A stretch of 49,891 nt of DNA from Kordiimonas aquimaris. GTDB taxonomy: Bacteria > Pseudomonadota > Alphaproteobacteria > Sphingomonadales > Kordiimonadaceae. Numbering within the stretch: position 1 is the stretch's first letter; every line of letters begins with the position of its first letter. Position numbers and translations under genes: made by a program. Location of the stretch: assembly GCF_025574485.1 (NCBI RefSeq), contig NZ_JAOBPO010000008.1:1-49891 (forward strand), read 5' to 3'. The notes under the pieces were generated by a model. That model had not been told where the DNA came from, searched no databases, and was given only the letters and a program-made list of their open reading frames with translations. This document shows positions 4,002-42,330 of this stretch, piece after piece.

Positions 4002-4150
4002 AAAATGAGTTTTTCGAATCTGAAGACTCACACAAAACGTGCACACAAAATTTTCAATTAAATTAATTACCTATATATTTCATATGGTTAATGACCTATC
4101 AATCAGGCTCATAACCTGAAGGTTGTAGGTTCAAACCTTAACTATAAAGT
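4002..4150 (+). repeat. tRNA-fMet-derived repeat, copy 1 (possible attachment scar)
   Basis: The right half matches the 3' part of an initiator tRNA: anticodon stem-loop TCAGGCTCATAACCTGA (4103-4119, CAT anticodon at 4110-4112) and a T arm with TTCAAAC; the acceptor end is degraded. The left half (4002-4100) is an AT-rich block starting AAAATGAGTTTTT and including GAATC and AAGACTCACACAAAA. The same block recurs at three other places in the window. No tRNA 5' half is present, so it is not a functional tRNA. It marks the left border of the microcin module. Confidence 0.75.
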
Positions 4151-4651
4151 ACCTCGGTCTTTTTGCTCGATTTTGATTAGCTATGATCTTGGATTCTTGG
4201 TTAAGGGTTTTGCCTCAAATACAACTTATTAGTGATTCGTGTTTACTGGGTAGTAATGTGCCGTGGAAATGAAAACAACTAGACTGTTAATTTGTATTAA
4301 TTGAAGTGCTTAATGAACTAGTAAACCATTGAAGAGCCTTGTTTTGAGTTTCTTGAATAATCAGTCGATTAATAAACTTAAAATTTTATTCTTGACTGTA
4401 GTTTACAACTTTGTGTGTAGTGCTGCCACAGAGTGTTGAGTTCAGATGTGGGGGCATCTATCATTTCTCAAGAATAATCGCATGCACCCTATGGGTGTAA
4501 TGTAACGGGGATTAGTTGTTGGTTGATTGTATGCAGCGTTGGGGCACTGCGTATTGATTAACTGGAGGCTGGTCGCTGGAAAAGTGTGTGGTTTGAACTG
4601 CTGGTACCAGTCCAAACCACGATGTCAAAACTATTATGGAGAATTGACAAA
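4151..4651. other. Non-coding stretch upstream of the microcin-like precursors
   Basis: I see no convincing gene in these 500 bases. It probably holds the promoter of module A. Near its right end a strong inverted repeat, GTGGTTTG (4588-4595) against CAAACCAC (4613-4620), encloses the self-complementary CTGGTACCAG. This hairpin would lie in the leader RNA of the first precursor and could act on translation or on RNA stability. Confidence 0.5.
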
Positions 4652-4990
4652 GTGGTTAATATCATAAAACCAAACATCAGGGAACTATCAAATAAAGAGC
4701 TTACTTTTGTAGCTGGTGGTTTCTCTTTTACGGAGCATCAAGTTAGCGAGAATATTGATGCAATCATTAGCAATGGCTTGACTGAGGAAATGCAAAGCAC
4801 AGCGTGTGCTATTTCTGCTGTGTCTTTACGACATTCTTCAAGTGAAGCATTTGTTGATGCTTTGGGCGAGGCTACACCGGAGAATGTGGCTTTAGATAGC
4901 CAGCCGGACGTTGGCTTGCCGAGTATTGCAGCGTTTTTAGATGAGTTTTCAGTGCGTCCATTCAACTTGAACCCTGACGGGCGATTATAG
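4652..4990 (+). CDS. Double-glycine leader peptide precursor 1 (microcin-like)
   Basis: I place the start at GTG 4652, nine bases after TATGGAGA, because the same TATGGAGA site precedes the start of the next precursor; GTG 4586 or ATG 4622 would only add residues. This gives 112 residues. The leader of 23 residues ends FVAGG and carries the motif REL-SN-KEL-TFVAGG, nearly the same as in the second precursor. The predicted mature part of 89 residues is acidic with one cysteine, no transmembrane segment and no glycine zipper. The leader type is the substrate signal for peptidase-C39 ABC exporters, and such an exporter lies downstream. It may be a second bacteriocin component or an accessory secreted peptide; its mature sequence is not one I recognise. 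Confidence 0.7.
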   Translation: MVNIIKPNIRELSNKELTFVAGGFSFTEHQVSENIDAIISNGLTEEMQSTACAISAVSLRHSSSEAFVDALGEATPENVALDSQPDVGLPSIAAFLDEFSVRPFNLNPDGRL

Positions 4991-4991
4991 A

Positions 4992-5010
4992 TAGCTGCCA
5001 ATAGCAGCTA
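4992..5010 (+). terminator. Stem-loop after precursor 1
   Basis: A perfect 7-bp stem, TAGCTGC (4992-4998) and GCAGCTA (5004-5010), closes a 5-base loop directly after the stop codon. There is no T run, so it is a weak or non-canonical terminator, or an RNA-stabilising hairpin. Confidence 0.45.
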
Positions 5011-5126
5011 AAGAAATTCATGTGCGTAATGGTTGCGTATATGGATGGCCCAAAATGGGTCAAAATGGTTCTCAAACCCTGGTACGGGGCGAGGACTTTG
5101 TTAAAACTAAATTATGGAGAAAACAC

Positions 5127-5456
5127 ATGACTACAATGGTACGTGAATTAAATATGAAAGAGCTAGCTTTTGTTAGCGGTGCTGGTGAAATCGAAGAAAT
5201 CACCGTTCACGGTGATCGTCCTAGTTCAGATAGCGGCGGAGGTTTTTTCTCAGTATTCACACCTACAAATATCGGAGGGGCTCTAGGGGGCCTTTTAGGA
5301 GGTGCTTTATGTGGTGCTGGTTGCGCAGCAGTAGGTGGATTAGTTGGAGCTGGAGCTGGAGCTGAACTCGAAGAGCAGCTTGATGCAACAGAAGCTCAGC
5401 GACAATTGGATGCGGCTAATGAAGCTTTTGATCGAGAGCTCGAGGACGGTTGGTAA
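5127..5456 (+). CDS. Class II microcin-like precursor with glycine zipper and TonB-box-like motif
   Basis: The ATG at 5127 follows TATGGAGA and gives 109 residues. The leader (about 1-19) has REL-NM-KEL-AFVSGA, matching the leader of precursor 1, so cleavage is expected after A19 (or after G18). The predicted mature peptide begins GEIEEITVHGDRP: residues 24-27 (EITV) resemble the TonB box found at the start of TonB-dependent receptors and of TonB-dependent colicins. Then come a Ser/Gly linker (33-39), a glycine-zipper hydrophobic segment (about 49-79, starting GGALGGLLGG, with C62 and C66), and a charged helical tail rich in Glu, Asp, Gln and Ala. Gly-rich membrane-inserting segments are typical of class II microcins. 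Longer starts upstream are open but lack a ribosome site. Confidence 0.75.
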   Translation: MTTMVRELNMKELAFVSGAGEIEEITVHGDRPSSDSGGGFFSVFTPTNIGGALGGLLGGALCGAGCAAVGGLVGAGAGAELEEQLDATEAQRQLDAANEAFDRELEDGW

Positions 5457-5533
5457 TAATCAGTCAAGCCTCATGTGCTGCTGAACGGTAAATAATGAAA
5501 TCAGCGTGTATGTGCAGGAGTGATTAAGAAACT

Positions 5534-5569
5534 GCAGGCACTATATTAATGAAAACCCTTAGTGCCTGC
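5534..5569 (+). terminator. 10-bp stem-loop after the microcin-like gene
   Basis: GCAGGCACTA (5534-5543) and TAGTGCCTGC (5560-5569) form a perfect 10-bp stem with a 16-base loop, followed by TATAATTT. It lies between the precursor genes and the rest of the module. It could terminate part of the transcripts so that precursor RNA exceeds exporter RNA, a common layout for bacteriocin operons. Confidence 0.5.
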
Positions 5570-5607
5570 TATAATTTGGTGCACAATTATTAACTAGGAT
5601 TAAGGCT

Positions 5608-5838
5608 ATGTTAGATAAAATTATTCCTTCATTGAAGTTCTTTATAATAGTGTTTTTAGGGATTTTAATCCCTCTAACGCTGTATGAGGTATCTCAAGAG
5701 GAAGGCTATTCCACAAAAGGCGCAACCTACTTCCTAGATATTATACTATCCAATGCAGATACATCGGTGATGGGGGCTCTTGGGGGTTTGCTTGGGAAGT
5801 ATCTATATAAATTTCGCGGTAGGCCGAGCGATACATAA
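5608..5838 (+). CDS. Small membrane protein, candidate microcin immunity protein
   Basis: This 76-residue protein has a strong transmembrane segment at residues 9-26 (LKFFIIVFLGILIPLTLY). A second, weaker one near 53-67 contains GALGGLLG (56-63), the same eight residues found in the glycine-zipper segment of the neighbouring precursor (51-58). It ends in a basic tail. The ATG is preceded by AGGATTAAGG. Immunity proteins of class II microcins are typically small membrane proteins encoded beside the precursor, so this is the best candidate. It could instead be a secretion accessory protein or a leaderless peptide. No known family is recognised. Confidence 0.5.
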   Translation: MLDKIIPSLKFFIIVFLGILIPLTLYEVSQEEGYSTKGATYFLDIILSNADTSVMGALGGLLGKYLYKFRGRPSDT

Positions 5839-5876
5839 TGTTTGATAATTATTCTACATATTCGGATTCAATATAA

Positions 5877-8711
5877 ATGATTCAAAAAGTATTATTAATT
5901 TTGCTGCTTGGAGTGAAGATTGTCTTCGCTCAAGAAAGTCAAGCACATGATCTCTTTTTTGATTCTTCGATTTTTGACGACGAACTTGAGAATGGCATGC
6001 GCTATGTCATTATGCCAAATGATGGACCTCAAGAAACAGCATCAGTTCGCTTGTATTTCGACATTGGCTCATTGCATGAGAAAGATCATGAACGCGGATT
6101 TGCGCATTTTGTTGAGCATATGGCGTTTAATGGTTCGACAAACTTCCCTGAGGGTGAGCTTGTTAAAACGCTGCAAAATGCAGGGCTAGCTTTCGGCGCA
6201 CACGCGAATGCATCAACGAATTTTGACCGCACAATTTACTCGCTTGAATTGCCTAATGTTGAAAGCGAGACAATTAAGCTTGCGCTTAAAGCACTCCGTG
6301 AAACATCTAGCAATTTGACGTTTACGCCGGAAGCTATTGATCGTGAGCGCGGCGTTTTAGTGTCTGAGCTGGACTCTCGTAACGGCAAAGGGCTTCAGGT
6401 TTTTCGTGAGCAGCTTAAGTTCTGGTCGCCAACCAGCCGGACCAATGTTCGATTTGCAGCAGGCACCAAGGAAACGATTGAAAGCGCGACGCGTGAAGAG
6501 CTGGTTGCGTTTTATAATGATTTTTACCGCCCTGAAAACGCTTACCTTGTGTTTGTTGGTGACGTTGAGGTTGAAGATATTGAGGTACTGATTGAAGAAA
6601 TCTTTGGCGACTGGACCAATGATACAGTTGAACGTGATACAGGCTATATGGACATACCGTTGCCTGTTGAAGAAACACCTCAGAACATAAAGTTTTTTGA
6701 CCTTGATGGCATTACAACATCGCTTAGTCTGACGATGCCGTTGCCGTTTGATGCAAGGGAAGATTCTGTTGCCAAGCGTGAAGATTTAATTATCAAATCC
6801 TTTGCAAATACAATGTTTGCACAGCGCCTTAATAAACTGACACGGCAAGACGGTGCGCCCATTCTGTCTTTGCGCGTCAGTTATACGCGGCTTTTTGAAG
6901 AAGCTATGCTGGCGAGCCTTACTGTTAACACGTCGGATGAAAATATTTATGATGCGGCTGGTTTGATGGAGCAGGAAATTCGGCGGGTTCTAACCCACGG
7001 GTTTACCGAAGACGAAGTTGTGGAGCAGAAAGCGAATTTCAAACTATCCTATCAGTATCAAGTAGATGCCGCAGAAAAGAGGCAGAATAACGTTCTAGCG
7101 AATGCGATTGTTAACAGTGTTCATACGGATACAGTGTTTATTCATCCTGACAATCAACTGGCAATATATGAAGGGCTTGAGCCGAGATTGAACGTTGATG
7201 TGTTGAATGCTGCGTTTGCAGATATGTGGGATAATCCATCGCGTTATTTTGCGCTTACCAACACTAAAATTGATGATGCAGAAAACAGATTGCAATTGGC
7301 ACTTGAGCAATCTCGGCAAGTGGCTGTTGCAGCGCCTGAGGTGCAAACGGTCACTGAGTTTGCCTACACAGACTTTGGGACACCGGGCAAGGTTGTTTAC
7401 CGCGAAGAGGATGAAGATTTTAGGTTCACAAAGATACGGTTTGAGAACAACCTGAAAGTGAATTTGAAGCCAACAACTTTTGAAGATAACACAGTTCGAA
7501 TGTCACTGACTCTTGGCGGAGGGGTTGCCTCTATGCCGAAAGAATTCGCTGGCATCCAAAACCTCGTAAACCTTGGCTTTGTTAATGGCGGTCTTGGTGC
7601 GCACGAAGTAACTGATATTCCGCGATTAATGGCAGGCACAACAGCGAGTATCAGGTTGCAGGCATCAAACAGCAGTTACTCTTTACCTGCTGGTGTTATT
7701 CCAGCTGATATGCTTAAGCAGTTTCAGCTTTGGGCGGCTTATCTTACAGATGCGGCATACAGGCCATCAGCGCACAGTCAATATGTACGTGCCATTGAAA
7801 ACTACTTTCAATCAGTAAACTCCACACCGGGCGGTGTTTTTAACGCAAAAATTAGCTCGTATTTGTACGGCGATGACCCTCGGTTCAACCTGCAGTCTGA
7901 GGAGCGACTTAAAGAACTTTCGATGCAAGACCTGCGATCTGTTCTGGCGGACGTGACTGCGAACGGTGCACTAGAATTAACAGTTGTGGGTGACTTTGAA
8001 ATTGATGCTGCAATTGAAGCACTATCTGTAACGCTAGGTGCCTTACCTAAACGCCGCCTCGTACCTGAACTTGACCCGGAGGTTGCAGAAATAACTTTCC
8101 CTGAAGGCACCAAAGAAGTTGTGTTTAAGCATACAGGCGGTGCCGACCAAGCGCTTTTGCGGATGTATTGGCCGACAGTTGGGCCGGATGAGCACGGATT
8201 AAATGCGAAGCTGTATTTGCTGCGTCACGTTCTTCAGGTGATGATGACTGAAACACTGAGAGAAGAAGAAGGGCTTGCTTATACGCCTTCTGTTTCAAAG
8301 TTAAGTTATGGCTATTTTGATGACTATGGTTTCCTAACAATTGCGACGGATATATCGCCGGGTGAAATTGAGCAGGCAAAAGCCATTTTTCTGGAAGTGG
8401 TGAATGAGCTTGTTTCGGGTGATATTGAACAAGACGTGATAGAGCGTGCCAGAAAGCCAATTCTTGAACAGTTACGCAATAGAAAAAAGAACAATTCTTA
8501 CTGGTTAAGAATTCTAGATGGAGCGCAGTCTGACCCCGATTACCTTCAGTATGACCTTCGTCTCGAAGAAGCAGTGACTGAAACAACATTGCAAGACCTT
8601 GTTGGTGTTGCAAGACAGTTTATGAGTGATGGGCCGCGCCTGACAGTAAGCGTTATTCCTGAGCCAATGGTTGCTGAGGACAGTGCGGCACCCAATGTTG
8701 CTACTCAATAA
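5877..8711 (+). CDS. Periplasmic M16-family zinc metalloprotease (PqqL-like)
   Basis: This 944-residue protein begins with a signal peptide (VLLILLLGVKIVFAQ). The inverted zinc motif HxxEH of M16 proteases is H77-FV-E80-H81, and the third zinc ligand is expected within ERGVLVSE (157-164, likely E164). The length and the two-half architecture (two M16 plus M16_C repeats; the second half begins near residue 520) fit the single-chain periplasmic type related to E. coli PqqL, which takes part in TonB-linked protein import. Such enzymes degrade unfolded peptides in a closed chamber. Between the microcin-like precursors and their exporter it could finish maturation, remove leaders, or destroy peptide that re-enters the producer. 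Only 12 bases separate it from the exporter gene. Confidence 0.9.
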   Translation: MIQKVLLILLLGVKIVFAQESQAHDLFFDSSIFDDELENGMRYVIMPNDGPQETASVRLYFDIGSLHEKDHERGFAHFVEHMAFNGSTNFPEGELVKTLQNAGLAFGAHANASTNFDRTIYSLELPNVESETIKLALKALRETSSNLTFTPEAIDRERGVLVSELDSRNGKGLQVFREQLKFWSPTSRTNVRFAAGTKETIESATREELVAFYNDFYRPENAYLVFVGDVEVEDIEVLIEEIFGDWTNDTVERDTGYMDIPLPVEETPQNIKFFDLDGITTSLSLTMPLPFDAREDSVAKREDLIIKSFANTMFAQRLNKLTRQDGAPILSLRVSYTRLFEEAMLASLTVNTSDENIYDAAGLMEQEIRRVLTHGFTEDEVVEQKANFKLSYQYQVDAAEKRQNNVLANAIVNSVHTDTVFIHPDNQLAIYEGLEPRLNVDVLNAAFADMWDNPSRYFALTNTKIDDAENRLQLALEQSRQVAVAAPEVQTVTEFAYTDFGTPGKVVYREEDEDFRFTKIRFENNLKVNLKPTTFEDNTVRMSLTLGGGVASMPKEFAGIQNLVNLGFVNGGLGAHEVTDIPRLMAGTTASIRLQASNSSYSLPAGVIPADMLKQFQLWAAYLTDAAYRPSAHSQYVRAIENYFQSVNSTPGGVFNAKISSYLYGDDPRFNLQSEERLKELSMQDLRSVLADVTANGALELTVVGDFEIDAAIEALSVTLGALPKRRLVPELDPEVAEITFPEGTKEVVFKHTGGADQALLRMYWPTVGPDEHGLNAKLYLLRHVLQVMMTETLREEEGLAYTPSVSKLSYGYFDDYGFLTIATDISPGEIEQAKAIFLEVVNELVSGDIEQDVIERARKPILEQLRNRKKNNSYWLRILDGAQSDPDYLQYDLRLEEAVTETTLQDLVGVARQFMSDGPRLTVSVIPEPMVAEDSAAPNVATQ

Positions 8712-8723
8712 AGCGAGTATGTT

Positions 8724-10862
8724 GTGAATGCGTCACCTGCAATTCTTTTTGGTAAGCGAAAGCTTCCTATTTTGCATCAGTCAGAGGCTGCGGAGTGTGG
8801 TCTTGCGTGTTTGGCGATGGTGGCAGCCTATCATGGATATAAGACTGACTTGAGTGCTTTGCGTGGCCGATTTCAGGTGTCACTTAAGGGGGCAACACTT
8901 CAGAACTTGATGTCGGTTGCAGATCAAATTGGTTTTGCAGCTCGTCCGCTGCGTGCGGAGCTAGAAGCGCTGGATACAATCCAGACACCAGCCATATTGC
9001 ATTGGAACATGAACCACTTTGTCGTGCTGGCGAAAGCAACCAAGAAGCATGCGATCATTCATGATCCGGCACGTGGTAAGCTCAAGCTATCTTTGCGCGA
9101 TGTATCAAACCATTTTACCGGCGTTGCACTTGAACTCAGGCCCACGCCAGCTTTTGAGCCAAAGGAAGATGTTAAGCCGGTAAAGCTTACTGACTTCTGG
9201 GGTAAAATATCTGGCTTGAAGCGCAGCATGGTACAAGCGTTTATGCTGTCTGCATTCTTGCAGGTATTTGCTCTGATCACGCCGCTTTACCAGCAGATGG
9301 TGGTGGATGACGCCATTACAAAGCAGGATACCGATTTCTTGATTGTTCTTGCTATTGGTTTTGGCTTCATGGGTGTGATGAACATCGCTGTTACCTACTT
9401 GCGTTCATACGTGATGCTCTATTTCTCATCTGCGCTTAATTTTCAAATGACGGTGAACCTGTTTCGTCATTTAATGCGTTTGCCGGTTGATTTTTTTGAG
9501 CGACGGCACATTGGTGACATTACCTCGCGCTTCGGATCGCTTGCGCCTGTTGGTCAATTGTTTACATCTGGCCTTGTCGCTGTCGTGCTTGATGGTTTTA
9601 TGGCAATTGGCACACTCGCTATGGCCTTTATCTATAGCGCCAAACTCACGTTTGTTGTGCTTGGGTTTATGATGGTTGGGTTTGCGATTGAGTTAGTCGC
9701 TTTTCCAGTGCGTAAACGTAAGAATGAAGAAATCCTGCACTTGGGCGCGAAGGAAAACTCTAACTTCCTTGAGACTATTCGTGCAGTGCGCGCCATCAAA
9801 ATATTTGGTCAGGAGACGGCGCGGGAAAGTGTGTGGCAAAACCTGAAGGTAGAAACATTGAATGCAAATGTTTCGCTGTCCAAGTTCAATATTAACCTCG
9901 GTAATTTCACATCATTGATTGGTGTAGGGCAGTCTATCATCGTTATGTATATGGGTGCCATTCTTGTTATTGACGGTAGTATGACACTTGGGATGCTGTT
10001 TGCCTATCAAGCTTATTCAGGCCAATTCTCCAGCCGTATCTCTGCGCTTATCGGCCAGTTTATGTCGTTTAAGATGCTTAAACTGCATTTGTCGCGGTTA
10101 GCTGATATCGTTCACACGGAACCAGAAGTCAAAACGGATGAGAACGGCACCGGTTCACAGCAGGCTATTAAGCTTAAAGGTGATATCCAGTTAAATAACC
10201 TTTGCTTCAGGTATGGTGAGCAAGAACCTTTTGTGCTGAAAGGTGTTGATCTTAATATTCAGGCTGGTGAGATGATTGCCATAACGGGCGCATCAGGCGG
10301 CGGTAAATCCACCCTTCTTAAGGTCATGCTTGGTCTATTAAAGCCGCAGGAAGGCGATATCCGAATAGACGGTGTTCCGCTCTCTGTAATGGGGCCGCAA
10401 GCATATCGTAGCAATCTGGGTGTGGTGATGCAGGATGATCAACTGTTGTCGGGCTCTATCGCTGATAACATAAGCTTTTTTGATCCCAATCTTGATCATG
10501 AAAAAATGGAGCTGTGTGCACGTGCAGCCGGTATCCATAAGGACATTGTAAAAAACCCGATGGGTTATAACAGCCTGATTGGTGATATGGGCACATCGCT
10601 GTCTGGTGGGCAAAAGCAGCGTATTATCATTGCGCGCGCTTTATACCGCAAACCGCGCATACTGTTTTTAGATGAAGGCACTGCAAATCTTGATGAGAAG
10701 ACTGAGCAGCATATTACGCATGTGATTGAACGCTTGCCCATCACGCGTATTATCATTGCGCACAGACCTGCGCTCATTGAAGCAGCAGACCGCGTGTTTG
10801 CCATGGTTGATGGCGTGCTCCATGAAGTGCCGCAACAACGCTTTCTTGGTGCCGCAGAATGA
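8724..10862 (+). CDS. Peptidase-C39 ABC exporter (bacteriocin processing and secretion)
   Basis: This 712-residue inner-membrane exporter cleaves double-glycine leaders and exports the mature peptide. The N-terminal C39 cysteine protease has C25 in QSEAAECGLACL, H98 in NMNHFVVL and D114 in HDPARG. A six-helix ABC membrane domain spans about residues 160-450. The ATPase domain has the Walker A loop GASGGGKST near 521-529, the signature LSGGQKQR near 626-633 and the Walker B ILFLDEG. The start is GTG 8724. It overlaps the adaptor gene by ATGA. The family includes CvaB and related microcin exporters; an outer-membrane TolC partner must be encoded elsewhere. The two upstream precursors are the obvious substrates. 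Confidence 0.95.
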   Translation: MNASPAILFGKRKLPILHQSEAAECGLACLAMVAAYHGYKTDLSALRGRFQVSLKGATLQNLMSVADQIGFAARPLRAELEALDTIQTPAILHWNMNHFVVLAKATKKHAIIHDPARGKLKLSLRDVSNHFTGVALELRPTPAFEPKEDVKPVKLTDFWGKISGLKRSMVQAFMLSAFLQVFALITPLYQQMVVDDAITKQDTDFLIVLAIGFGFMGVMNIAVTYLRSYVMLYFSSALNFQMTVNLFRHLMRLPVDFFERRHIGDITSRFGSLAPVGQLFTSGLVAVVLDGFMAIGTLAMAFIYSAKLTFVVLGFMMVGFAIELVAFPVRKRKNEEILHLGAKENSNFLETIRAVRAIKIFGQETARESVWQNLKVETLNANVSLSKFNINLGNFTSLIGVGQSIIVMYMGAILVIDGSMTLGMLFAYQAYSGQFSSRISALIGQFMSFKMLKLHLSRLADIVHTEPEVKTDENGTGSQQAIKLKGDIQLNNLCFRYGEQEPFVLKGVDLNIQAGEMIAITGASGGGKSTLLKVMLGLLKPQEGDIRIDGVPLSVMGPQAYRSNLGVVMQDDQLLSGSIADNISFFDPNLDHEKMELCARAAGIHKDIVKNPMGYNSLIGDMGTSLSGGQKQRIIIARALYRKPRILFLDEGTANLDEKTEQHITHVIERLPITRIIIAHRPALIEAADRVFAMVDGVLHEVPQQRFLGAAE

Positions 10863-12103
10863 GCAGTCTATTTCGTAAAGAAGCAATGGATCATCAGCGC
10901 ACCAAGCTTTGGGGCGATGTCATCATCGTCCAACCAACAAGCTATTACTTCATCGTATTGTTGTTTTTGATTGTGTTTATCGCTCTTGGTATCTTCCTTG
11001 CCTCGCAATCGTATGCTCGTAAAGAGACTGTGCTTGGTTTTTTGGCCCCAGAAGGTGGGCTTGCAAATGTTTATGCCAGCAGAGGTGGGACCGTTGATAC
11101 ACTCTATGTAGCGCCGGGGCAGAAAGTTGTGAAAGGGCAGCGTCTTGCATCCATGAGATTGGAGCGCCGTGTACTTTCTGGTTCTTCTAGTATCGAAATG
11201 TTTAAGGCATCGTTAGAGCGTGAACTGAGTGATATAAATACACGCCTTGCGGATGCTGATGTGCGTCTTGCAAAAGAAACAGGCGGTTTGAGATCGAGGC
11301 TTGTAGGGCAACAAACTGAGCTTTCGTCGATTGTTGATGAAGCAAACATCCTCTCTGGCAGGATTGAGCTGGCACGTAAACAATATGATGCTGCACTGGA
11401 ACTGGTTGCAGATGGTTATACAACACAGCGTACCGTTGATGCCCGGCAAGAGGCATTCCTTGGGCTACAACAGCAACAAACAAGCCTTACCCGGCAAAGA
11501 ACTAACCTTGAAACTAATATCAAGCAGACAGAAGGTTCTTTGGAGCTGTTGCCCTATCGGTTTGATGAAGAAAAGTCTAACTTGCGTCAACGAGCTGAGG
11601 CTTTGGGCCGCCAACTATCGGATCAGGAACTGGCGTCCGGATATGTATTAAGCGCACCACTGGATGGTTATGTGGTTGGCATTCTTAAACAAGAAGGTGC
11701 TGCAGTTATTGGTACTGCACCGCTTCTGGTGATCAGGCCTGAAAGTTCGAACTTAGTTGCAAAGCTCTTGGTGCCAAGTCGGGCTGCTGGATTGCTGGCT
11801 GTTGGACAAGAGGCCAAGATACAGTATGACGCATTCCCGTATCAACGCTTTGGTGTGTTTGACGGTACTGTGAAAGCTATATCTGAAAACATATTGTCTC
11901 CGGGCGAACTGGAGGTGCCGGTTCCTATGCAGGAGGCATTTTATCTTGTCGACTTGGAGCTTGAAAGTAACATGGTTGAATTGGCGACGCAGAGCGTGGC
12001 GTTGAAGTCAGGCATGCTTCTCAAAGCAGATGTGCGGCTTGAAGAACGTTCACTTGTACAATGGGTTTTTGATCCGATTTTGTCGCTAAAGGGTAAGCTC
12101 TAA
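10859..12103 (+). CDS. HlyD/CvaA-type membrane fusion protein
   Basis: This 414-residue periplasmic adaptor links the C39 exporter to an outer-membrane channel. It has a short cytoplasmic N-terminus, one transmembrane helix (about residues 28-49), a lipoyl-like half-motif (GGTVDTLYVAPGQKVVKGQRLA, split across 75-96), a long coiled coil (about 115-260), the second lipoyl half (SAPLDGYVVGILKQEGAAV) and a C-terminal beta barrel. The start overlaps the exporter stop as ATGA, so the two are translationally coupled. The protein resembles CvaA of colicin V secretion more than RND-pump adaptors. Module A ends just after it. Confidence 0.92.
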   Translation: MSSLFRKEAMDHQRTKLWGDVIIVQPTSYYFIVLLFLIVFIALGIFLASQSYARKETVLGFLAPEGGLANVYASRGGTVDTLYVAPGQKVVKGQRLASMRLERRVLSGSSSIEMFKASLERELSDINTRLADADVRLAKETGGLRSRLVGQQTELSSIVDEANILSGRIELARKQYDAALELVADGYTTQRTVDARQEAFLGLQQQQTSLTRQRTNLETNIKQTEGSLELLPYRFDEEKSNLRQRAEALGRQLSDQELASGYVLSAPLDGYVVGILKQEGAAVIGTAPLLVIRPESSNLVAKLLVPSRAAGLLAVGQEAKIQYDAFPYQRFGVFDGTVKAISENILSPGELEVPVPMQEAFYLVDLELESNMVELATQSVALKSGMLLKADVRLEERSLVQWVFDPILSLKGKL

Positions 12104-34652: not shown

Positions 34653-34752
34653 ACCTCCTGATGCATAATCAGTAGGGACATAAATAACAGTGCCTTGATT
34701 TCGGTGGATTAAGAATTGTGCTTAAGAAAGCAGTCAAACACAGAGGATAAGA

Positions 34753-36060
34753 ATGATTAAGTTTCTTTTTAATCGCCGCAACCCTAATAGCTCCCCGCAT
34801 GTGCCTACATCAGCTATTTTCAATAGGATGATGCTAACCTCCATTTTAACACTGGGCCTAATGAATTTGTCGGCTATTACTCATGCAGATGACTTATCTG
34901 ATGTAGAGAAAGCTGGGAAATATCTTGTCGCTGCTGGTAACTGTGTGAGCTGTCATACAAGCGAAAATGGAAGCCCATTTGCAGGTGGGCTTGCTTTTGA
35001 AACGCCGTTTGGGACGATATATTCAACAAATATTAGTTCCGATCCAGAGTTAGGCATTGGCGGGTGGAGCCTTGAAGAGTTCGAGGCAGCGTTAAGGCAC
35101 GGGGAAAGGCCTGACGGCGAAAACCTTTATCCAGTGTTCCCTTACACCTCGTACACACTAATCAGCGACGAAGATGTTGCATCGATTTACGCGTTTCTCA
35201 AGACTGTTGAGCCAGTGAAATATACGCCGCCGGAGAATGATCTGGGTTTCCCATACAACCAGCGCTGGGCCGTGGGGCTGTGGAAAGCTTTGTACTTCGA
35301 TGAGGGGCGATTTGAGCCAGAGCAGGCACAAACCAAGCAATGGAACCGTGGTGCCTATTTGGTCGAAGGGCTTGGTCATTGCGGCATGTGCCACTCGCCG
35401 CGGAATTTTATGGGTGCAATCGATACTGACCTCGCCATGACTGGGGGTACTTATATGACGCACGTCGAGAGCAAACTCTCGGCATGGTCAGCACCAAACC
35501 TCACGTCTGCGGATAATGGCCTGTCGATGTGGCATGAAGAAGATATCAAAAATTATCTGAAGCTGGGCGTTAGTGCGCGTGCGGGTGTATTTGGGCCAAT
35601 GAACAAGGTGGTGATGAATAGCACCCGGCATATGTCAGCGGAGGATGTGACCGCGATGGCTGTGTATTTGAAGAGCCTGCCTGCTAACTCTCAGGATACT
35701 AATCCACCTGCAGCAGATACGACTATTCAGGCTGGTTCTGTACAGTACGATATTCATTGCGGCACCTGTCATCTGCCAACGGGACAAGGTTCCCCAAATA
35801 CGGGGCCTACGTTGATTGGCAGTCCAGTAGTTCTGGACACCGATCCATCGTCGCTAATTAATATTACTCTGTTCGGTGCTCAGACACCCAAGATTGCACC
35901 GTCGGACGAATGGAATTCAAGGCGTTGGCAGCATATGAATCCTTTTGCCGCGAAATTGAATGATAAACAAGTAGCCGATCTTCTAAGTTTTATACGTAGT
36001 TCGTGGGGGCACAAAGCAGGCGCAGTAAGCTCAGAACAGGTGACAACACAGCGCAAATAG
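34753..36060 (+). CDS. Triheme cytochrome c (alcohol/gluconate dehydrogenase subunit type)
   Basis: This 435-residue exported protein has three CxxCH haem sites: C64-VS-C67-H68, C210-GM-C213-H214 and C336-GT-C339-H340. The order of three cytochrome domains and the text (YLVAAGNCVSCHT, FAGGLAFETPFGTIYSTNI, YLVEGLGHCGMCHSPRN) match the membrane-bound cytochrome subunit of alcohol, gluconate and fructose dehydrogenases, which pass electrons to quinone or to a terminal oxidase. No flavin or quinoprotein dehydrogenase is next to it, so the electron donor is probably another module C protein. The signal segment is at about 26-45. Confidence 0.9.
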   Translation: MIKFLFNRRNPNSSPHVPTSAIFNRMMLTSILTLGLMNLSAITHADDLSDVEKAGKYLVAAGNCVSCHTSENGSPFAGGLAFETPFGTIYSTNISSDPELGIGGWSLEEFEAALRHGERPDGENLYPVFPYTSYTLISDEDVASIYAFLKTVEPVKYTPPENDLGFPYNQRWAVGLWKALYFDEGRFEPEQAQTKQWNRGAYLVEGLGHCGMCHSPRNFMGAIDTDLAMTGGTYMTHVESKLSAWSAPNLTSADNGLSMWHEEDIKNYLKLGVSARAGVFGPMNKVVMNSTRHMSAEDVTAMAVYLKSLPANSQDTNPPAADTTIQAGSVQYDIHCGTCHLPTGQGSPNTGPTLIGSPVVLDTDPSSLINITLFGAQTPKIAPSDEWNSRRWQHMNPFAAKLNDKQVADLLSFIRSSWGHKAGAVSSEQVTTQRK

Positions 36061-36225
36061 TTTGAGCGCAAAAAATGAAACCGAGCTGCTCACATGGGTA
36101 CTTTGTACTATTTGCCGTGCGATGAACTATAGTTGACAGATTACGTGAAAACGGTTTCAGTATAAGCGTATTACTATCGAATAGGTTTCCTGGGTGGAGG
36201 TGCCTGATAGTGCCAGACTGAAATT

Positions 36226-36245
36226 TTTGTTATTCAAGTAACAAA
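36226..36245. promoter_or_regulatory. Inverted repeat before the DUF1592 gene
   Basis: TTTGTTA-TTCAAG-TAACAAA is a perfect 7-bp inverted repeat in the 275-base gap between the cytochrome and the DUF1592 gene. It may be a regulator site or a hairpin. Nothing else is recognised in this gap. Confidence 0.3.
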
Positions 36246-36335
36246 GCCTGTAAACTCCGCGACATTTTCTGATGTGTCCGATGTAACCGGGTATTGCTGG
36301 CGAGGGTCTTAGGGAGCACTAATCAGGGGGGTAAA

Positions 36336-38072
36336 ATGCACTTATTTGTGATAACTTTGGTTCGCAGGACCATGGTTTATCTGTTGGTTGCGGCGACGCT
36401 TGTTGGCTGTTCCGAGTCAGGTCCAGCCGAACCCGAAACGCAGGGCGCTCAACCTCGGATGAGGCTTGTTACCACGGATCAATATGTCAATACATTGATG
36501 TATGTATTCGGGTCTAGTGTCCATACGCAAGGAGAGTTCTCTCCCGCAGAACGAACAGAGGGATTGCTGGCGAACGGCGCAGCTGTGGCAGGCGTTAGTG
36601 CCTCTCTGCTCGAACAGTTCCAGCGGACAGCTGCTAGCGTGGCGGCTCAAGTGGTGGATGAAGGACATCGTCATTACCTAATCCCTTGCAAGCCTGCATC
36701 CGAAGATGCAGCAGACAACGTTTGTGCAACTGAGTTTCTATCGAAAACAGGGCGTCTTCTTTTTGGGCGTGCCTTGAACGATGCCGAAATCACGGCATAT
36801 GTAGCAAGCGCTGAAACAGCAGCCGAAAGTTTGGAGGACTTTTACCGAGGGCTGGCGACAGCGCTGGAAGGAATGTTGATAAGCCCTGACTTTTTGTTTG
36901 TCTTGGAGAATGCCGAACCAGATCCGAGAACTCCCGGCAAACTCCGTCTTGATGCATATTCGGTCGCCTCGCGTCTCAGTTACTTTTTTTGGAATGCCAG
37001 CCCGGATGCCGAATTGTTGGACGCCGCTGAGAGTGGTGAGTTGCAGACAGAAGATGGCCTCGCGCGCGCCGTTGATAGAATGTTGGCGAGCCCGAGACTA
37101 GATAGTGGCATGCGGGCTTTTTTCGATGACATGTTTGCTTTTGACGACTTTAACACGCTCTCAAAGGATCCGCTCATCTATCCGACTTTCACAAGTGTAA
37201 CGGCTGTGGCTGCACGTGAGCAGACGTTGCGCACGGTGATCAATCATTTGATCAACAATGAAGAAGATTATCGTGACTTGTTCACAACGCGGTCAACCTT
37301 CATATCGCCGGAGTTGGCTGTACTTTACGACATGCCTGCGCCGTCTGGGTGGACGCCTTATACTTTTCCGCCCGACAGTCTAAGGGCCGGGTTGCTTACG
37401 CATGTTAGTTTCCTGGCTTTGCACGCACACCCTGGACGTAGTTCGCCGACACTACGTGGTAAAGCACTACGTGAATTGCTGCTATGCCAGCATGTGCCAC
37501 CTCCGCCTCCGGATGTCGATTTCTCGGTCATAATGGATGCCAATGCGCATTACCCTACACAACGGGAACGTGTGGCGGCTCATCTTGAGAATCCTTCATG
37601 CGCTGGTTGCCACAGAGTTACTGACCCAACTGGACTATCGCTGGAGAATTTCAATGGCGAAGGGCGAGTGCGGTTAAGGGAAAATAACGTTCTGATTGAT
37701 GCAACCGGTGACCTAGATGGTGTGAAATTTGAAAACGTGGTAGGTTTGGGGCAAGCTTTACGTAATAATACGGCTTTGCCGGCATGTTTGGTCCAGCGCC
37801 TCTATAGTTATGGATCAGGCGGGCCAACCGGCGCGCAAGACAATCAACTACTAGAGTACTTCAATGAGCGTTTTGCAGCTGGTGGATATCGATTACCTAA
37901 CCTGCTGCGCACGATAGGATTGAGTGAATCGTTTTCGCGAGTGAAAGATGGTTGGAGCCCTGCGCCAATGGAGCCAGAACCTGATGTTGACAACAGTCCT
38001 GAGCAGCACATTGCCAGTAATACTCATAACGCTGAGCCAACGGTTCAATCTGTAGAAGGTGTGAAGAAATGA
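36336..38072 (+). CDS. DUF1592/DUF1588-type lipoprotein with C-terminal haem motif
   Basis: The start at ATG 36336 follows a GGGGGG-rich site; 578 residues. A lipobox ends at C25 (ATLVGC). The order of regions fits the planctomycete-type DUF1587/1595/1592/1588/1585 family: RLVTTDQYVNTL at the start, ALEGMLISPDFLFVLE, SRLSYFFWNASPD, RAGLLTHVSFLALHAHPGRSSPTLRGK, then CAGCH (the cytochrome c-like motif of DUF1588) and a DUF1585 tail with YSYGSGG. The function is unknown; the haem motif suggests electron transfer. It is always a good partner of DUF1552 genes, and one follows here with ATGA overlap. Confidence 0.85.
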   Translation: MHLFVITLVRRTMVYLLVAATLVGCSESGPAEPETQGAQPRMRLVTTDQYVNTLMYVFGSSVHTQGEFSPAERTEGLLANGAAVAGVSASLLEQFQRTAASVAAQVVDEGHRHYLIPCKPASEDAADNVCATEFLSKTGRLLFGRALNDAEITAYVASAETAAESLEDFYRGLATALEGMLISPDFLFVLENAEPDPRTPGKLRLDAYSVASRLSYFFWNASPDAELLDAAESGELQTEDGLARAVDRMLASPRLDSGMRAFFDDMFAFDDFNTLSKDPLIYPTFTSVTAVAAREQTLRTVINHLINNEEDYRDLFTTRSTFISPELAVLYDMPAPSGWTPYTFPPDSLRAGLLTHVSFLALHAHPGRSSPTLRGKALRELLLCQHVPPPPPDVDFSVIMDANAHYPTQRERVAAHLENPSCAGCHRVTDPTGLSLENFNGEGRVRLRENNVLIDATGDLDGVKFENVVGLGQALRNNTALPACLVQRLYSYGSGGPTGAQDNQLLEYFNERFAAGGYRLPNLLRTIGLSESFSRVKDGWSPAPMEPEPDVDNSPEQHIASNTHNAEPTVQSVEGVKK

Positions 38073-39406
38073 AAAACTTAAGCAGACGCCGCGTGTTAAG
38101 AGGAATGTTAAGAGGGGGTGCGGTAACAATTGCACTACCCATGCTGGATTGCTTTTTAAATGGAAATGGTACCGCTCTGGCTTCGGGTGCTCCCATGCCG
38201 GTCAGGTTCGGGACATGGGGTTATGGGCTTGGAATGACGGCGAACATCTTCGTGCCTAAAAAGTATGGTTCTGGTTACGATCTCCCCGAGGAAATTGAAT
38301 CGTGGGCACCAGTGCGGGATCATATCAATCTGTTCACAAATGCTTCAGCCTTTCCGGACGATTCTCCTGTACCGTGCCATCACACTGGCTGGGTAATTGG
38401 GAGAACGGGCGTTGCACCAAAGGATGGACAATCAATCCCTGGCGAAACTATTGATGTCACTGTTGCCAACCAAGTTGGTGGCACTACGCGCTTCAAGTCG
38501 CTCACTGCGACTGCAACCGCTGACGTTCGCAGCACCTATAGCTACGAGAATGCCACCACGCCCAATGCACCCGAGTGGTCACCGCTGAAATTCTACAACC
38601 GCCTTTTTGGGCCGGAATTCCCGAACCCTAATGCAGAATCGTTCACGCCTGATCCGGAAGTTATGGTCCGAAAAAGCGTTCTATCAGGTGTGATGGATCA
38701 GACACGGTCGTTGATGCGGCAAGTCGGCGCAGAAGACCGACAGCGCCTCGACCAATATTTTACCGGATTGCGTCAATTAGAGAACCAGTTTGCCCAGCGC
38801 CTTAAAAAACCCGAGCCAATTGCAGGTTGTCGCCCTGGCCAAGCGCCGATAGCTGACCCTCCTATGGACAAGACTGCTGAGTCAGTAGCGCTGCGGCACC
38901 GCATGATGACCGAACTGCTTGTCATGGCTGTGGCTTGTGACCAGACCCGAGTTATCAACATGGTGTATTCAGGTGCGGCATCGGTGGTTATTAAGCCAGG
39001 GTATGAAAAGCCAGCTCACACGACAACTCATGAAGAGCCCGTAGATAAAAAGTTGGGTTATCAGCCGAATGCTTCATGGTTTACACGCAGAACAATGGAA
39101 AGCTGGGCAGAATTCGTTGGTGCATTCGCAAGCGTCAAAGAAGGCGACGGAACATTGCTTGATAATATGTTGATATATGCAACTACTGATCATGGATATG
39201 CTCGTTTCCATACCTTAGATGGCATGCCTGTTCTTACCGCTGGACGTGCCGGAGGCAAAGTTAAAACAGGGATGCATATCGATATGGGTGGCGGCTCTGT
39301 AACACAAGTAGGTTACACTGCTATGCGTGTGATGGGCGTGGACACGCCGTCGTGGGGCTCCAAAAGCAATAAAGTATCCTCTGCACTCGGTGATATGCTC
39401 GTTTGA
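38069..39406 (+). CDS. DUF1552 protein with Tat signal
   Basis: This 445-residue protein starts with a twin-arginine signal (LSRRRVLRGMLRGG) and has the DUF1552 layout, including FGTWGYGLG, CHHTGWVIGR, TYSYENATTPN, YFTGLRQLENQF and a C-terminal ATTDHGYARFHTLDGMPVLTAGRAGGK (in two parts). The family is related to DUF1501/alkaline-phosphatase-like folds by its TDHG segment. Tat export suggests a folded, metal-containing protein. It overlaps the DUF1592 gene. The two families are found together in many genomes, but their reaction is not established. Confidence 0.87.
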   Translation: MKNLSRRRVLRGMLRGGAVTIALPMLDCFLNGNGTALASGAPMPVRFGTWGYGLGMTANIFVPKKYGSGYDLPEEIESWAPVRDHINLFTNASAFPDDSPVPCHHTGWVIGRTGVAPKDGQSIPGETIDVTVANQVGGTTRFKSLTATATADVRSTYSYENATTPNAPEWSPLKFYNRLFGPEFPNPNAESFTPDPEVMVRKSVLSGVMDQTRSLMRQVGAEDRQRLDQYFTGLRQLENQFAQRLKKPEPIAGCRPGQAPIADPPMDKTAESVALRHRMMTELLVMAVACDQTRVINMVYSGAASVVIKPGYEKPAHTTTHEEPVDKKLGYQPNASWFTRRTMESWAEFVGAFASVKEGDGTLLDNMLIYATTDHGYARFHTLDGMPVLTAGRAGGKVKTGMHIDMGGGSVTQVGYTAMRVMGVDTPSWGSKSNKVSSALGDMLV

Positions 39407-39499
39407 GTGAGGCAGTGAGTTGAGTGTGCGTTTGCGAAGATACGCCGCATACTCTCAATTCAAAGGAAGATATACGCTGTATATAAGTAAGGCTGGAAA

Positions 39500-40954
39500 A
39501 TGAACAGATATGTGGACACAACAAGTCGCCGTTTCGCATTCATTATGCTGAAAAGTGGATTACTTGCCATAACTGTTGCGCTGAATATAAGTGCTGTGAG
39601 TGCAGCCGACACAGATGTGGTCGCTTCAAATCTTGAGGATTTTGAATATTGGCAGTCGCCAAATAGCCAAGTGCTTGAAGAATATATCGACGTTCCAATG
39701 CCGCCCGAATTTCAGGTGCTGGCTACAGAATTGGAAGGACCGGTTTTTGCTGATGCGGGCGGGCGGACACTATATAGGTGGCCGCTAAAAAACCTACGCA
39801 ATGGGTCAACTGGTGACCGAAAAGACGGCAATAAATCTGTGTGTACGGATGAAGTTATGCAGGTGACATCAGGCCTTATGAGTCCATACCCACCCGGGCT
39901 AGTGTTGCCCAATCTCGACAAGCGTCCGAGTTGCGTTGAGATATGGCCGCCTGTACTTGCTGACGAAGGTTCCGAGCCAGTAGGTAAATGGACATTAATC
40001 GAGCGAGATGATGAGACAAAACAGTGGGCCTTTGATGGGTACCCGTTGTATTTTTCTACTTTGGACCAGCAGTCGGGGGACGTTCTGGGTGGCACTAAAA
40101 TTCAGGGCGGTGGCGGCTCGCCGGCGGGCCGTGTACCTGTAGGTCCACCTTCTGCACATCCACCATTATTTCAAGTTATTGCTATGGCTACTGGGAGAAT
40201 GATCGTTACTGAGGATCGGTATTCAGTATATAGCTTTGAGGGTGATGAGCCCAATAAGTCAAATTGCTATAACAGCTGCCTTAATAACTGGACGCCTGTA
40301 CTGGCATCAGTGTCGGCGGTAGAACAAGGCAAATGGACAGTTATCGAGCGTTCGCCCGGTGTGCGTCAGTGGGCCTTTTGGGGCAAGCCGCTTTATACTT
40401 ATAACCTTGATACTCTCGGCGTTAGTCGCATTGGCAGCGATGTGCCCGGGTGGCACAATGTCTATACACAGCGCTCTCTGGCCCCTCCGCCGGAAAATTT
40501 TTCTGTTCAGGCGGCACGTATTGGCCATGTGCTAGCAGATGGAAACGGCAAAACAGTTTATGTTTACAACTGCGGGGATGATGCCTACGACCAGCTGGCT
40601 TGCGATAATCCGGACACTGATCAGGAGTATCGTTTAGCAATTTGTGGCAACGGCGACCCGAAAGTTTGCCGTGAGACTTTTCCGTATGTTATCGCGCTAG
40701 AAAATGCGACGAGTGAAAGCCGGCTGTGGAGTGTGATGAAAATCGATCCAAATACCGGTCACCGTGCCTTAGAAGGGCAAGTGGACGGGATAAATGTTTG
40801 GGCTTACCGCGCCCGGCCAGTGTTCACTTTCACGGGCGATACTGAGCCAGGAGATGCGAACGGTGACGCATTCGGTGAGTTTAACGGCTACCGTAATGGC
40901 TTCAAAGCCTTCTGGCTGCGTGATGATTATCTGACGAATGCTTATAGACGATGA
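39500..40954 (+). CDS. Exported protein with PF03640-type repeats
   Basis: This 484-residue protein has a signal peptide (about 14-36, ending VSAAD). It holds repeated units of the secreted-repeat family PF03640: GGRTLYRWPL with CVEIWPPVLA, WAFDGYPLYFS, then YSVYSFEGDEPNKSNCYNSCLNNWTPVLA and WAFWGKPLYTY, and a third, weaker unit near GKTVYVYN. The motif pairs a Tyr/Phe strand with paired cysteines (SNCYNSC). Family members are thought to be electron-transfer or binding proteins, without firm proof. The ATG at 39500 is closely followed by a charged, twin-Arg-like RR. It belongs with the redox genes around it. Confidence 0.8.
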   Translation: MNRYVDTTSRRFAFIMLKSGLLAITVALNISAVSAADTDVVASNLEDFEYWQSPNSQVLEEYIDVPMPPEFQVLATELEGPVFADAGGRTLYRWPLKNLRNGSTGDRKDGNKSVCTDEVMQVTSGLMSPYPPGLVLPNLDKRPSCVEIWPPVLADEGSEPVGKWTLIERDDETKQWAFDGYPLYFSTLDQQSGDVLGGTKIQGGGGSPAGRVPVGPPSAHPPLFQVIAMATGRMIVTEDRYSVYSFEGDEPNKSNCYNSCLNNWTPVLASVSAVEQGKWTVIERSPGVRQWAFWGKPLYTYNLDTLGVSRIGSDVPGWHNVYTQRSLAPPPENFSVQAARIGHVLADGNGKTVYVYNCGDDAYDQLACDNPDTDQEYRLAICGNGDPKVCRETFPYVIALENATSESRLWSVMKIDPNTGHRALEGQVDGINVWAYRARPVFTFTGDTEPGDANGDAFGEFNGYRNGFKAFWLRDDYLTNAYRR

Positions 40955-40991
40955 TTGGTCTTAAGGGCATTGGGCCGCAGAGGAGTAACCT

Positions 40992-42131
40992 ATGAATAAT
41001 AGTGGAAAATACCTGCAATCAAGGTTGTCGAATATATCCCGAATATTACCGCGCATAGCAGTGGCGGCAACCTTGCTGACCGGCAGCGGCACGATCTTGT
41101 TGAGCGGAAGCGATGCTGCGCTAGCTGAGGCCCCTCCTGGTGGCCGGATTGGTTATGTTCTGACAAACAGAATGTATGCGGTTTACGAGACTGACGAGAG
41201 TGTTCAATGCCCTGATGGTTTAAATCTTGGGCCTCGCGAACTGTTTGCCAAGCGCTTTCCTGACGATGGTACTAAACGCACTGTTGTCGAGACACAGTTG
41301 AAACTCGAGGGAGAGAATTGGCATTCGAATGCTGAGGAAAACCTAGTAGCCCCTTACCGAGAGCCGCAGGGTAATATTTCGTATGGGCTTAATCTTGATG
41401 GGCAAACCGGACCCAATGATTTCCAAAGCCCGGACGGTGAAGATGGAATTGATAACCAGTTTTACCGTGTGGTTGGCTGTACCAACAACTATATGAAAGC
41501 AGGTTCGCTTCGTCACTTCGTTAACGTGTTTATGGTGCAATATAACAGCAACCGCTGGGTGTTTGAATTGACAGGTGTTGATGATTTGACCAACGACGAC
41601 GAAGTAACATTAACCACGTATCGCGGCCGCGACCCGTTGCTAGCGGATGCTACTGGTGAAGGTTACATTCCCGGCGGAACACAGCGTATTGATATGCGTT
41701 GGGGCAAAGAGTTTATTATGCAGATTCAGGGCAAGATTGTTGATGGGATACTTACCACAGAACCTATTGAACATATCAAGGTGCCTGCGAGTTCTACGTT
41801 CAATACCAACGGATACGAGTCTTATCTCGGCCTTCGTTTTCAGCTTGCCCTGACGCCCAAGGCGGCAAAAGGCACGATGGCAGGCTTCATGGACATCGAT
41901 AAGTTTCGCCATTGGCGGAACACGACTTGGTCAACGCATCATCAGAGCTACGGGCAAGAATCTGCTAGTTCCATGTATAGCGCTTTACATCGTCACGCAG
42001 ACGGTTATCCAGATGCGGTAACTGGGCAGAATACTGCGATTTCTATGGCTCAGGAAGTGACGTTCGTGCAGACTTACATTATGCATCCGAGCGAAAAAAC
42101 GAACCAGGTGGCCGCAGCCTCTCTCAATTAA
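40992..42131 (+). CDS. Exported protein of unknown function (module C end)
   Basis: This 379-residue protein has a GAGGAG ribosome site and a signal peptide of about 46 residues (ending ALAEA). The mature part is rich in Tyr, Asn and Gly, with only two cysteines (C72 and C148 approximately) and no transmembrane segment. A probable beta-rich fold is suggested by the alternating strands in the middle (RWVFELTGVDDL, EVTLTTYRG). I do not recognise the family. It starts 37 bases after the PF03640 protein and is likely co-transcribed with it as the last gene of module C. Confidence 0.75.
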   Translation: MNNSGKYLQSRLSNISRILPRIAVAATLLTGSGTILLSGSDAALAEAPPGGRIGYVLTNRMYAVYETDESVQCPDGLNLGPRELFAKRFPDDGTKRTVVETQLKLEGENWHSNAEENLVAPYREPQGNISYGLNLDGQTGPNDFQSPDGEDGIDNQFYRVVGCTNNYMKAGSLRHFVNVFMVQYNSNRWVFELTGVDDLTNDDEVTLTTYRGRDPLLADATGEGYIPGGTQRIDMRWGKEFIMQIQGKIVDGILTTEPIEHIKVPASSTFNTNGYESYLGLRFQLALTPKAAKGTMAGFMDIDKFRHWRNTTWSTHHQSYGQESASSMYSALHRHADGYPDAVTGQNTAISMAQEVTFVQTYIMHPSEKTNQVAAASLN

Positions 42132-42214
42132 GTGTATTCTCACTATCAAAAAGAAGGCATTCGCTGGTAGTGTTGTTCGGTCTAAAATTATTAGAGTAAG
42201 GCCTGCTGGATTTT

Positions 42215-42330
42215 AAAAGGAGTTTTTAAAATCACTTAACTCATACAAATTTTTAGGTAAATTTATTATCTATATAATTCAATGATTTAATAACCTGTCA
42301 ATTAATCTCACAACCTGCAGACAAAGTATG
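42215..42330 (+). repeat. tRNA-fMet-derived repeat, copy 4 (most decayed)
   Basis: The AT-rich block (AAAAGGAGTTTTT, AACTCATACAAATTTT, TTATCTATATAATTCAATGA) aligns with the other copies. The tRNA part is decayed: ATTAATCTCACAACCTG keeps the anticodon-arm shape with CAC in place of CAT, and only a TTCAA trace of the T arm is left. It ends module C. Confidence 0.65.

Follow-up and report, generated by a model that had tools for sequence, protein, structure and literature searches.

Displaced tRNA-fMet ends and a probable tandem island array in Kordiimonas aquimaris

Why does a single contig of Kordiimonas aquimaris carry the 3' part of an initiator tRNA gene four times, always in the same orientation and each time between genes of unrelated function? 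The contig (NZ_JAOBPO010000008.1; 49,891 nucleotides, hereafter the window) is the entire contig C25 of a 26-contig draft genome of 3.81 Mb (labelled G000). A preliminary description, made from the sequence alone, had attributed the repeats to repeated site-specific integration at one tRNA gene, with the intervening modules as possible non-autonomous cargo moved in trans by one recombinase. Our results support this interpretation overall. We estimate a probability of about 0.85 that the window is part of a tandem genomic-island array built by repeated site-specific integration beside tRNA-fMet, in which the integrase-less modules were probably moved by the integrase of another element.

Each repeat would be a right attachment site (attR), consisting of the right end of an inserted element (two arm-type integrase sites, a bend site like those of integration host factor (IHF), and half a core) followed by the displaced tRNA-fMet from nt 28, with the crossover placed within the anticodon stem-loop. 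The most likely enzyme is a tyrosine recombinase of ~400 amino acids (aa), encoded on mobilizable elements that directly adjoin tRNA-fMet in related Kordiimonas. New modules would enter at the intact tRNA and displace older ones outward, and the window modules, having no integrase, would depend on one supplied from another element.

Anatomy and distribution of the repeats

The window sequence confirmed that the four copies lie where the preliminary description had placed them, all in the same orientation:

3995-4137, plus strand: attR copy 1; right-end block 3995-4102, arm repeats CTCACACAAAA (4027-4037) and TGCACACAAAA (4040-4050), IHF-like site TTTCATATGGTTA (4078-4090, 2 mismatches to the consensus), intact 17-nt core (4103-4119), tRNA-fMet nt 28-60 at 4103-4135
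12150-12291, plus strand: attR copy 2; second arm type TTTATCACA / TTATCACA, intact core, tRNA nt 28-66 at 12256-12294
32842-32970, plus strand: attR copy 3; single arm repeat ACTCACATAAAA, 2 core mismatches, tRNA nt 28-77 at 32935-32984
42208-42337, plus strand: attR copy 4, eroded; 5 core mismatches, followed by a T-loop-insert repeat (42326-42429)

The 108 bases reported between AAAATGAG and the CAT anticodon were recovered in copies 1 and 2 (4002 to 4110 and 12155 to 12263). Calling the copies near-identical was too strong, since ungapped identity to copy 1 over 95 nt is 77% for copy 2 and 64% for copy 3, while copy 4 lies outside this repeat family and has 5 mismatches in the 17-nt core. 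The AT-rich block said to be shared does hold a repeated motif in the same place, but copy 2 lacks AAGACTCACACAAAA and has TTTATCACA / TTATCACA there. Likewise, the tRNA part is a tRNA-fMet fragment, but instead of being a 3' half it begins at nt 28, in the anticodon stem.

The same anatomy was found in other genomes of the genus. At a cut-off of 40 bits, we counted 59 attR copies in seven of the 19 Kordiimonas genomes (8 in G000, 13 in G007, 9 in G013, 2 in G015, 6 in G016, 6 in G017 and 15 in G018); this count covers the stretches fetched, not every genomic copy. An element right end of ~105 bp, with two arm-type direct repeats and an IHF-like site, is joined to tRNA-fMet from nt 28 onwards. 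The tRNA starts at this nucleotide in 50 of the 52 listed partial copies, at nt 27 in one and at nt 33 in another. The core, TCAGGCTCATAACCTGA, is the anticodon stem-loop and is exact in 32 of the 59 copies; its layout, TCAGG-CTCATAA-CCTGA, is a 5-bp inverted repeat flanking 7 nt. Left of the IHF-like site stand arm direct repeats of two types, either CTCACACAAAA/TGCACACAAAA or TATCACA/AGCACA-like. The arm motif TCACACAA occurs in 31/59 blocks and in 0/59 of the 200-nt stretches that follow the copies on the right, and [TC]ATCACA is present in 16/59 blocks. Block sites were scored against the IHF consensus. It was matched exactly in 17/59 blocks compared with 0.7% of shuffles, and with at most one mismatch in 43/59 blocks compared with 11.7% of shuffles; the best match falls at -32 or -31 in 40/59 blocks. 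An AT-rich control of this scoring was spoiled by N runs and is not used. Judged from sequence features, arm repeats, an IHF-type bend site and a core of inverted repeats around a 7-nt spacer correspond to the attachment-site anatomy of a tyrosine recombinase.

The genome of K. aquimaris contains at least eight attR copies, including the four in the window; the whole-genome count proposed earlier thus yielded at least four further copies, two on contig C26 and one each on C3 and C4. A genome search with copy 1 returned other copies at E-values from 2.6e-32 to 7.8e-8, which is not chance; it missed copy 4, which was recovered in a smaller search (E 3.3e-10). In other genomes, E-values went down to 1.9e-37. 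A hidden Markov model of attR was built on this genome's own eight copies, so that its E-values for those copies are circular. Four intact tRNA-fMet genes are assembled in this genome, on C26, C11, C1 and C22, and the one on C26 follows 23S and 5S rRNA. Because the window is one whole contig of a draft, its link to any particular tRNA gene is unassembled. Hence, integration at tRNA-fMet stands, but the restriction to one tRNA gene goes beyond the assembly, with its four copies and unjoined array contigs.

Within the genus, a 149-bp query matched 10 of the 19 genomes at E 1e-5, several of them through the tRNA alone. Nine genomes gave no tRNA-fMet match. The tRNA allele was considered and dropped as the reason why some species have arrays: the contig of G012 stops inside flank-like DNA, and therefore a missing assembly of DNA linked to the rRNA operon (rrn) explains the lack of a match in at least this genome. 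With the block alone as query, eight of 296 genomes of the order had a match (two best candidates scored per genome), namely the seven array genomes and G088, from a sister genus in the family. A search of the literature on Kordiimonas islands and initiator-tRNA integrases, in which most subscription journals were outside coverage, returned nothing on this system.

Copies this numerous, with diverged ends, might also be expected of a dispersed tRNA-derived repeat, similar to a short interspersed nuclear element and unconnected to islands. We regard this as hardly credible, given that every examined array keeps a single orientation, that the copies are spaced by whole modules, and that they are oriented as the tRNA wherever tRNA and array share a contig.

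Another feature of the tRNA part is a structured insert of 34-123 nt in the T-loop. It was present in 16 of the 38 attR copies with a recognisable acceptor stem (loci L025, L066-L071 and others; window 42326-42429) and is of several sequence types. One of these, the class A T-loop repeat, had six matches elsewhere in the genome at E ≤1e-5, each adjoining a tRNA-fMet or an attR copy.

Integrase elements at tRNA-fMet in related genomes

A tyrosine recombinase of 394-403 aa, scored weakly by Pfam, is encoded directly downstream of intact tRNA-fMet in G015 (at two sites), G016 and G017, on four elements of 25-33 kb. A profile search recovered these four full copies and a truncated copy at tRNA-fMet in G004. 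The expectation of an intact tRNA-fMet with an adjoining tyrosine recombinase was thus borne out in three relatives, but not in K. aquimaris itself. Its modules are free of integrase, as had been claimed: searches with the integrase query (tblastn against C25, C26, C3 and C4) and with the profile were negative in the window and its genome, and the only three PF00589 proteins of this genome are all on C1. The suggestion that the left block is the end of the mobile unit was also upheld, for it holds arm-type repeats that recur between tRNA-fMet and the integrase gene in relatives. There, CACACAAAA was found in three of five left ends and related ACACA/GCACA words in the other two; the random segments with which these ends were compared may include blocks.

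Filled and empty sites can be compared within G015, which has three tRNA-fMet loci, two with an integrase element (29,531 and 33,601 bp from core to core) and one empty. All three loci agree exactly over the 300 bp that precede the core. After the attR core, filled and empty sites match over 278 bp (99.6%) and 417 bp (100%), whereas after the tRNA core the match ends at 55-57 nt. The four integrase elements and the G015 sites document site-specific integration at a tRNA gene; the window itself has displaced tRNA parts only.

This comparison also bears on homologous recombination, by which modules would have spread through crossover in the rrn, tRNA and flank repeats beside rRNA operons, with attR copies as mere passengers. 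A flank common to the four assembled tRNA-fMet copies of K. aquimaris, and flank-like DNA next to many attR copies, would give such crossovers a substrate. The break in G015, however, falls at the tRNA core, as in a site-specific event, flank types vary inside one array, and right ends are conserved outside any flank homology. We therefore consider this explanation unlikely.

In GTDB genomes, the integrase survey covered the best 80 of 308 related loci. Nineteen of these 80 share ≥65% identity with the integrase. In 18, a tRNA-Met(cat) on the same strand precedes the gene by 117-170 bp, and the remaining locus begins at a contig edge. In the full set of 80, the neighbouring tRNA was Met (31), Phe (5), Lys (3), Arg (2) or Asn (1); four loci lay at a contig edge and 34 had no tRNA by this rule, of which ten have tRNA-Leu on the other side of the gene. 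In G004, a relative with 58-60% identity adjoins tRNA-Arg(acg) (L101), indicating that the family switches tRNA targets. The integrase query matched eight plasmid records, each below 60% identity, and one distant integrase (56%) in viral contigs, which showed no block-plus-core pattern in a search for the exact pattern that misses variants.

The G015 element encodes, among 10 Pfam-scanned proteins, a MobA-type relaxase and two coupling-type proteins of type IV secretion systems. With both integrase and mobilization genes it is an integrative mobilizable element (IME), which the window modules are not. In L086, the intact integrase gene is followed 1-4 kb further on by two pieces of its C-terminal part (G015:C1:167596-167733 and 169026-169145), as if cargo had repeatedly been inserted at its 3' end. 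A second tyrosine recombinase, of 191-193 aa, is common to the four integrase elements and the tRNA-Arg element of G004 (L087:6788-7366, L092:2873-3451, L091, L086).

A different enzyme stands directly beside an attR copy on C26 of K. aquimaris: a large serine recombinase of 576 aa with Resolvase and Recombinase domains (C26:20768-22498; L026), with a TrwC relaxase further along the contig and a 64% relative at a tRNA-fMet fragment in G003. That this enzyme built the array is very unlikely. Among the arrays examined, a near-full match occurs only in C26 itself, and the block contains arm and IHF-like sites, which serine integrases are not known to need. As driver of the arrays it was rejected on its distribution, since PF07508 had no match in G018, which holds 15 of the 59 copies. 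The tRNA-fMet fragment encodes the last codons of the enzyme, which represents another integrase family that uses the same tRNA and is unrelated to the first.

Recurring modules, array size and the origin of left ends

Modules recur as units in other genomes. In an all-against-all comparison of proteins (≥45% identity; arrays examined), G018:C7 18212-30025 corresponded to G016:C3 from 26234 (12 proteins at 92%), G018:C6 30931-48556 to part of G017:C3 (9 proteins at 88%, with attR on each side in both), and G018:C7 30168-37495 to G016:C6 from 70195 (5 proteins at 90%). Two neighbouring modules of G018:C7 thus occupy two different contigs in G016, each starting with its own tRNA-fMet. The bacteriocin module of the window shares 3 proteins at 70% with G016:C3 17602-26095, which lies between two attR copies as well, and its DNA homology to G016 extends through the right-end block.

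Array size varies at a single locus, which we recognised by a set of conserved genes beyond tRNA-fMet (flavin monooxygenase, SSS transporter and neighbours). The DNA between the tRNA and this set is free of attR copies in G017:C2, in G000:C11 (with a 2-kb piece of the set 22 kb from the tRNA) and in the G012 contig. At the same locus there are two copies in G016:C3, eight in G007:C89 (tRNA off the contig), four in G013:C89 and two in G018:C4 (set split over two contigs). The comparison of relatives called for by the preliminary description therefore gave from none to eight attR copies at an orthologous locus, in addition to the filled and empty sites of one genome. As a measure of age, core mismatches increase outward from the tRNA side, from 0, 0 and 2 to 5 in the window; over eight arrays the trend had a permutation p of 0.009, and the rank correlation was positive in all six arrays where it is defined.

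The DNA examined contains 41 complete intervals, four with integrase (25-33 kb) and 37 without (median 9.6 kb, range 4.4-27.7 kb). The two groups differ in their left ends. Compared with five tRNA-fMet flanks, 37 of the 59 stretches after attR gave a match at E 1e-4, which spanned ≥56 nt in 34 cases. These 34 include two genuine chromosomal flanks, both in G015, and one of the five flanks used for comparison, that of G012, may be array-derived itself. Copy 4 is the only one in the window with a flank-like match behind it. In the four integrase elements, in contrast, left ends match tRNA-fMet flanks over 30 nt at most.

How did modules without an integrase arise? They might be ordinary cis-mobilizable elements (CIMEs), that is, decayed integrative elements that lost integrase and transfer genes, kept both ends and were stacked by later insertions. 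This is a real possibility, although we would put it somewhat below even odds. Integrase elements with the same right end occur at the same tRNA, a truncated integrase lies at tRNA-fMet in G004, and the process is documented in the available part of an IME review (PMC5704250) and suggested for Dehalococcoides in that of PMC3146451. It is at variance with the 37 of 41 complete intervals in which the integrase query was negative, with the flank-like left ends, and with the contrast between blocks and following stretches in TCACACAA. By the search for integrase-type left arms, absent after all 59 copies, the window modules do not qualify as CIMEs; transfer genes were sought only among Pfam-scanned proteins.

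Plain CIME decay does not account for the asymmetry of the left ends, which leads us to another, more tentative idea. Integrase-less left ends have no arm motif, and their attP would therefore be one-armed. The only element-derived part of such a module might be its ~105-bp right end, with the host's tRNA-fMet flank as its left end. An integrase borrowed from a passing mobilizable element could then cut out any DNA between tRNA-fMet and a downstream right end and reinsert it at another tRNA-fMet. Chromosomal genes would in this way become cassettes of 4-28 kb, shuffled among rrn-linked tRNA-fMet genes and between species, much like an integron at the scale of gene clusters.

Several results weigh against the tandem-array interpretation. 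By profile search, the integrase is absent from K. aquimaris, G007 and G013, and G018 gave a single weak match, within a different integrase; these four genomes without full integrase hold 45 of the 59 attR copies. Within their fetched extent, the flanks of the integrase homologues L126-L203 contained no partial tRNA copy whose core is exact. The arm motif is missing from the left ends of integrase-less modules (59/59 stretches after attR), and three arrays (G016:C3, G016:C6 and G007:C89) finish in a module whose right end could not be recognised. Only one of the three complete modules of the window was matched in another examined array. Furthermore, a second measure of age, the score of the whole-element model, showed no trend (p 0.20), and excision, circles or transfer were not observed.

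Known islands and gene content of the window

By analogy, the system would work like tandem tRNA/tmRNA island arrays, additive islands, CIME accretion and tycheposons, all of them known kinds. The ssrA-specific islands of Dehalococcoides, as far as the accessible part of PMC3146451 describes them, likewise stand in tandem behind a single small-RNA gene, with direct repeats of the gene's 3' end as their borders; the DNA beside the repeat is conserved, many islands have no integration module (15 are reported there) and cargo is strain-specific. They use tmRNA, the serine recombinases DsiB/DsiA, a crossover in the T-loop and a 20-bp repeat, whereas Kordiimonas has tRNA-fMet, a candidate tyrosine recombinase, a crossover in the anticodon arm and a ~105-bp right end with arm and IHF-like sites, with integrase absent from 37/41 examined intervals. 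Hence, the window is not an ssrA island of the Dehalococcoides type, with a serine recombinase module at tmRNA.

CIMEs and tandem accretion of IMEs and integrative and conjugative elements (PMC5704250, in the part available) similarly involve integrase-less units bounded by att sites and stacked at a shared end of the target gene; a CIME, however, keeps attL and attR, whereas Kordiimonas modules keep right-end arms only. Tycheposons, named as a parallel in the preliminary description, are tRNA-anchored cargo islands with a tyrosine recombinase and tRNA-Met among their targets, according to the secondary descriptions in the available parts of PMC10872708, PMC10803314 and PMC11389934. The Kordiimonas islands belong to a different phylum, showed no sign of virion packaging and form arrays of integrase-less modules. 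A large tRNA-anchored cargo element with a tyrosine recombinase is an apt account of the integrase elements in relatives, but not of the window modules. Additive flexible genomic islands (Alteromonas, PMC4119200; Actinomarinales, PMC7771536; Methylophilaceae, PMC10872708) also add cassettes at a tRNA, with repeats of its 3' end at their borders and cassettes common to different genera. The accessible parts of these papers describe neither arm-site anatomy nor an element end conserved past the tRNA repeat.

The Kordiimonas arrays provide a mapped case in which most islands of a tRNA array have no integrase, yet share one element end with readable enzyme sites. This makes it testable whether cargo without any mobility gene can move through a single borrowed end, and supplies a tRNA-fMet-specific integrase family for assays. 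The arrays also show where Kordiimonas species keep exchangeable functions, such as bacteriocin export, metal uptake and redox sets. The remaining features of the window are:

1-3994, plus strand: module fragment cut by the contig start (Pfam; inverted repeat arms)
1-1237, within this fragment: IS3-type insertion sequence (Pfam; 30-bp inverted repeats)
1815-3062: ATP-grasp-type protein (Pfam)
3078-3653, minus strand: low-molecular-weight phosphatase (Pfam)
4138-12149, plus strand: module 1, bacteriocin/microcin-type export (Pfam; homologous module in G016:C3)
4586-4990 and 5022-5456: two small open reading frames of module 1
5877-8711: M16 peptidase of module 1
8724-10862: C39-peptidase ABC exporter of module 1
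10859-12103: HlyD-type adaptor of module 1
12292-32841, both strands: module 2, with Fur-like protein, MerC, two TonB receptors, kelch protein, MacB/FtsX, DUF418 and ABC-2/DUF3526 transporters (Pfam)
32971-42207, plus strand: module 3, redox set with HpcH/HpaI aldolase, HiPIP, cytochrome c, PSD-domain protein, DUF1552 and Lipoprotein_15 (Pfam)
42338-49891: module 4, cut by the contig end; LuxR-type regulator and alpha/beta hydrolase on the minus strand, then RTX-like nonapeptide repeat DNA (Pfam; repeat families)

Pfam assignments agree with the earlier claim that the copies separate sets of unrelated function, i.e. bacteriocin export, Fur/MerC/TonB/ABC-2 and HiPIP/cytochrome c/DUF1552. The assembly break at the contig start is probably due to the IS3-type insertion sequence with its 30-bp inverted repeats. 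A tRNA search found no complete tRNA in the window, and an Rfam scan of the window and C26 returned only rRNA and tRNA-fMet, both on C26. The DNA of module 3 had zero matches in plasmids. G+C content showed no contrast between the window (46.6%) and C11 6-40 kb (47.0%, a figure lowered by masked N).

The small open reading frames upstream of the C39 exporter (4586-5456) match G016 only over ~50 and ~100 bp in their 5' parts, as would bacteriocin precursors that share a conserved leader. At the other end of the window, coding DNA for RTX-like nonapeptide repeats (44650-49652) heads to the contig end, and the first module of C26 also has an RTX-repeat protein.

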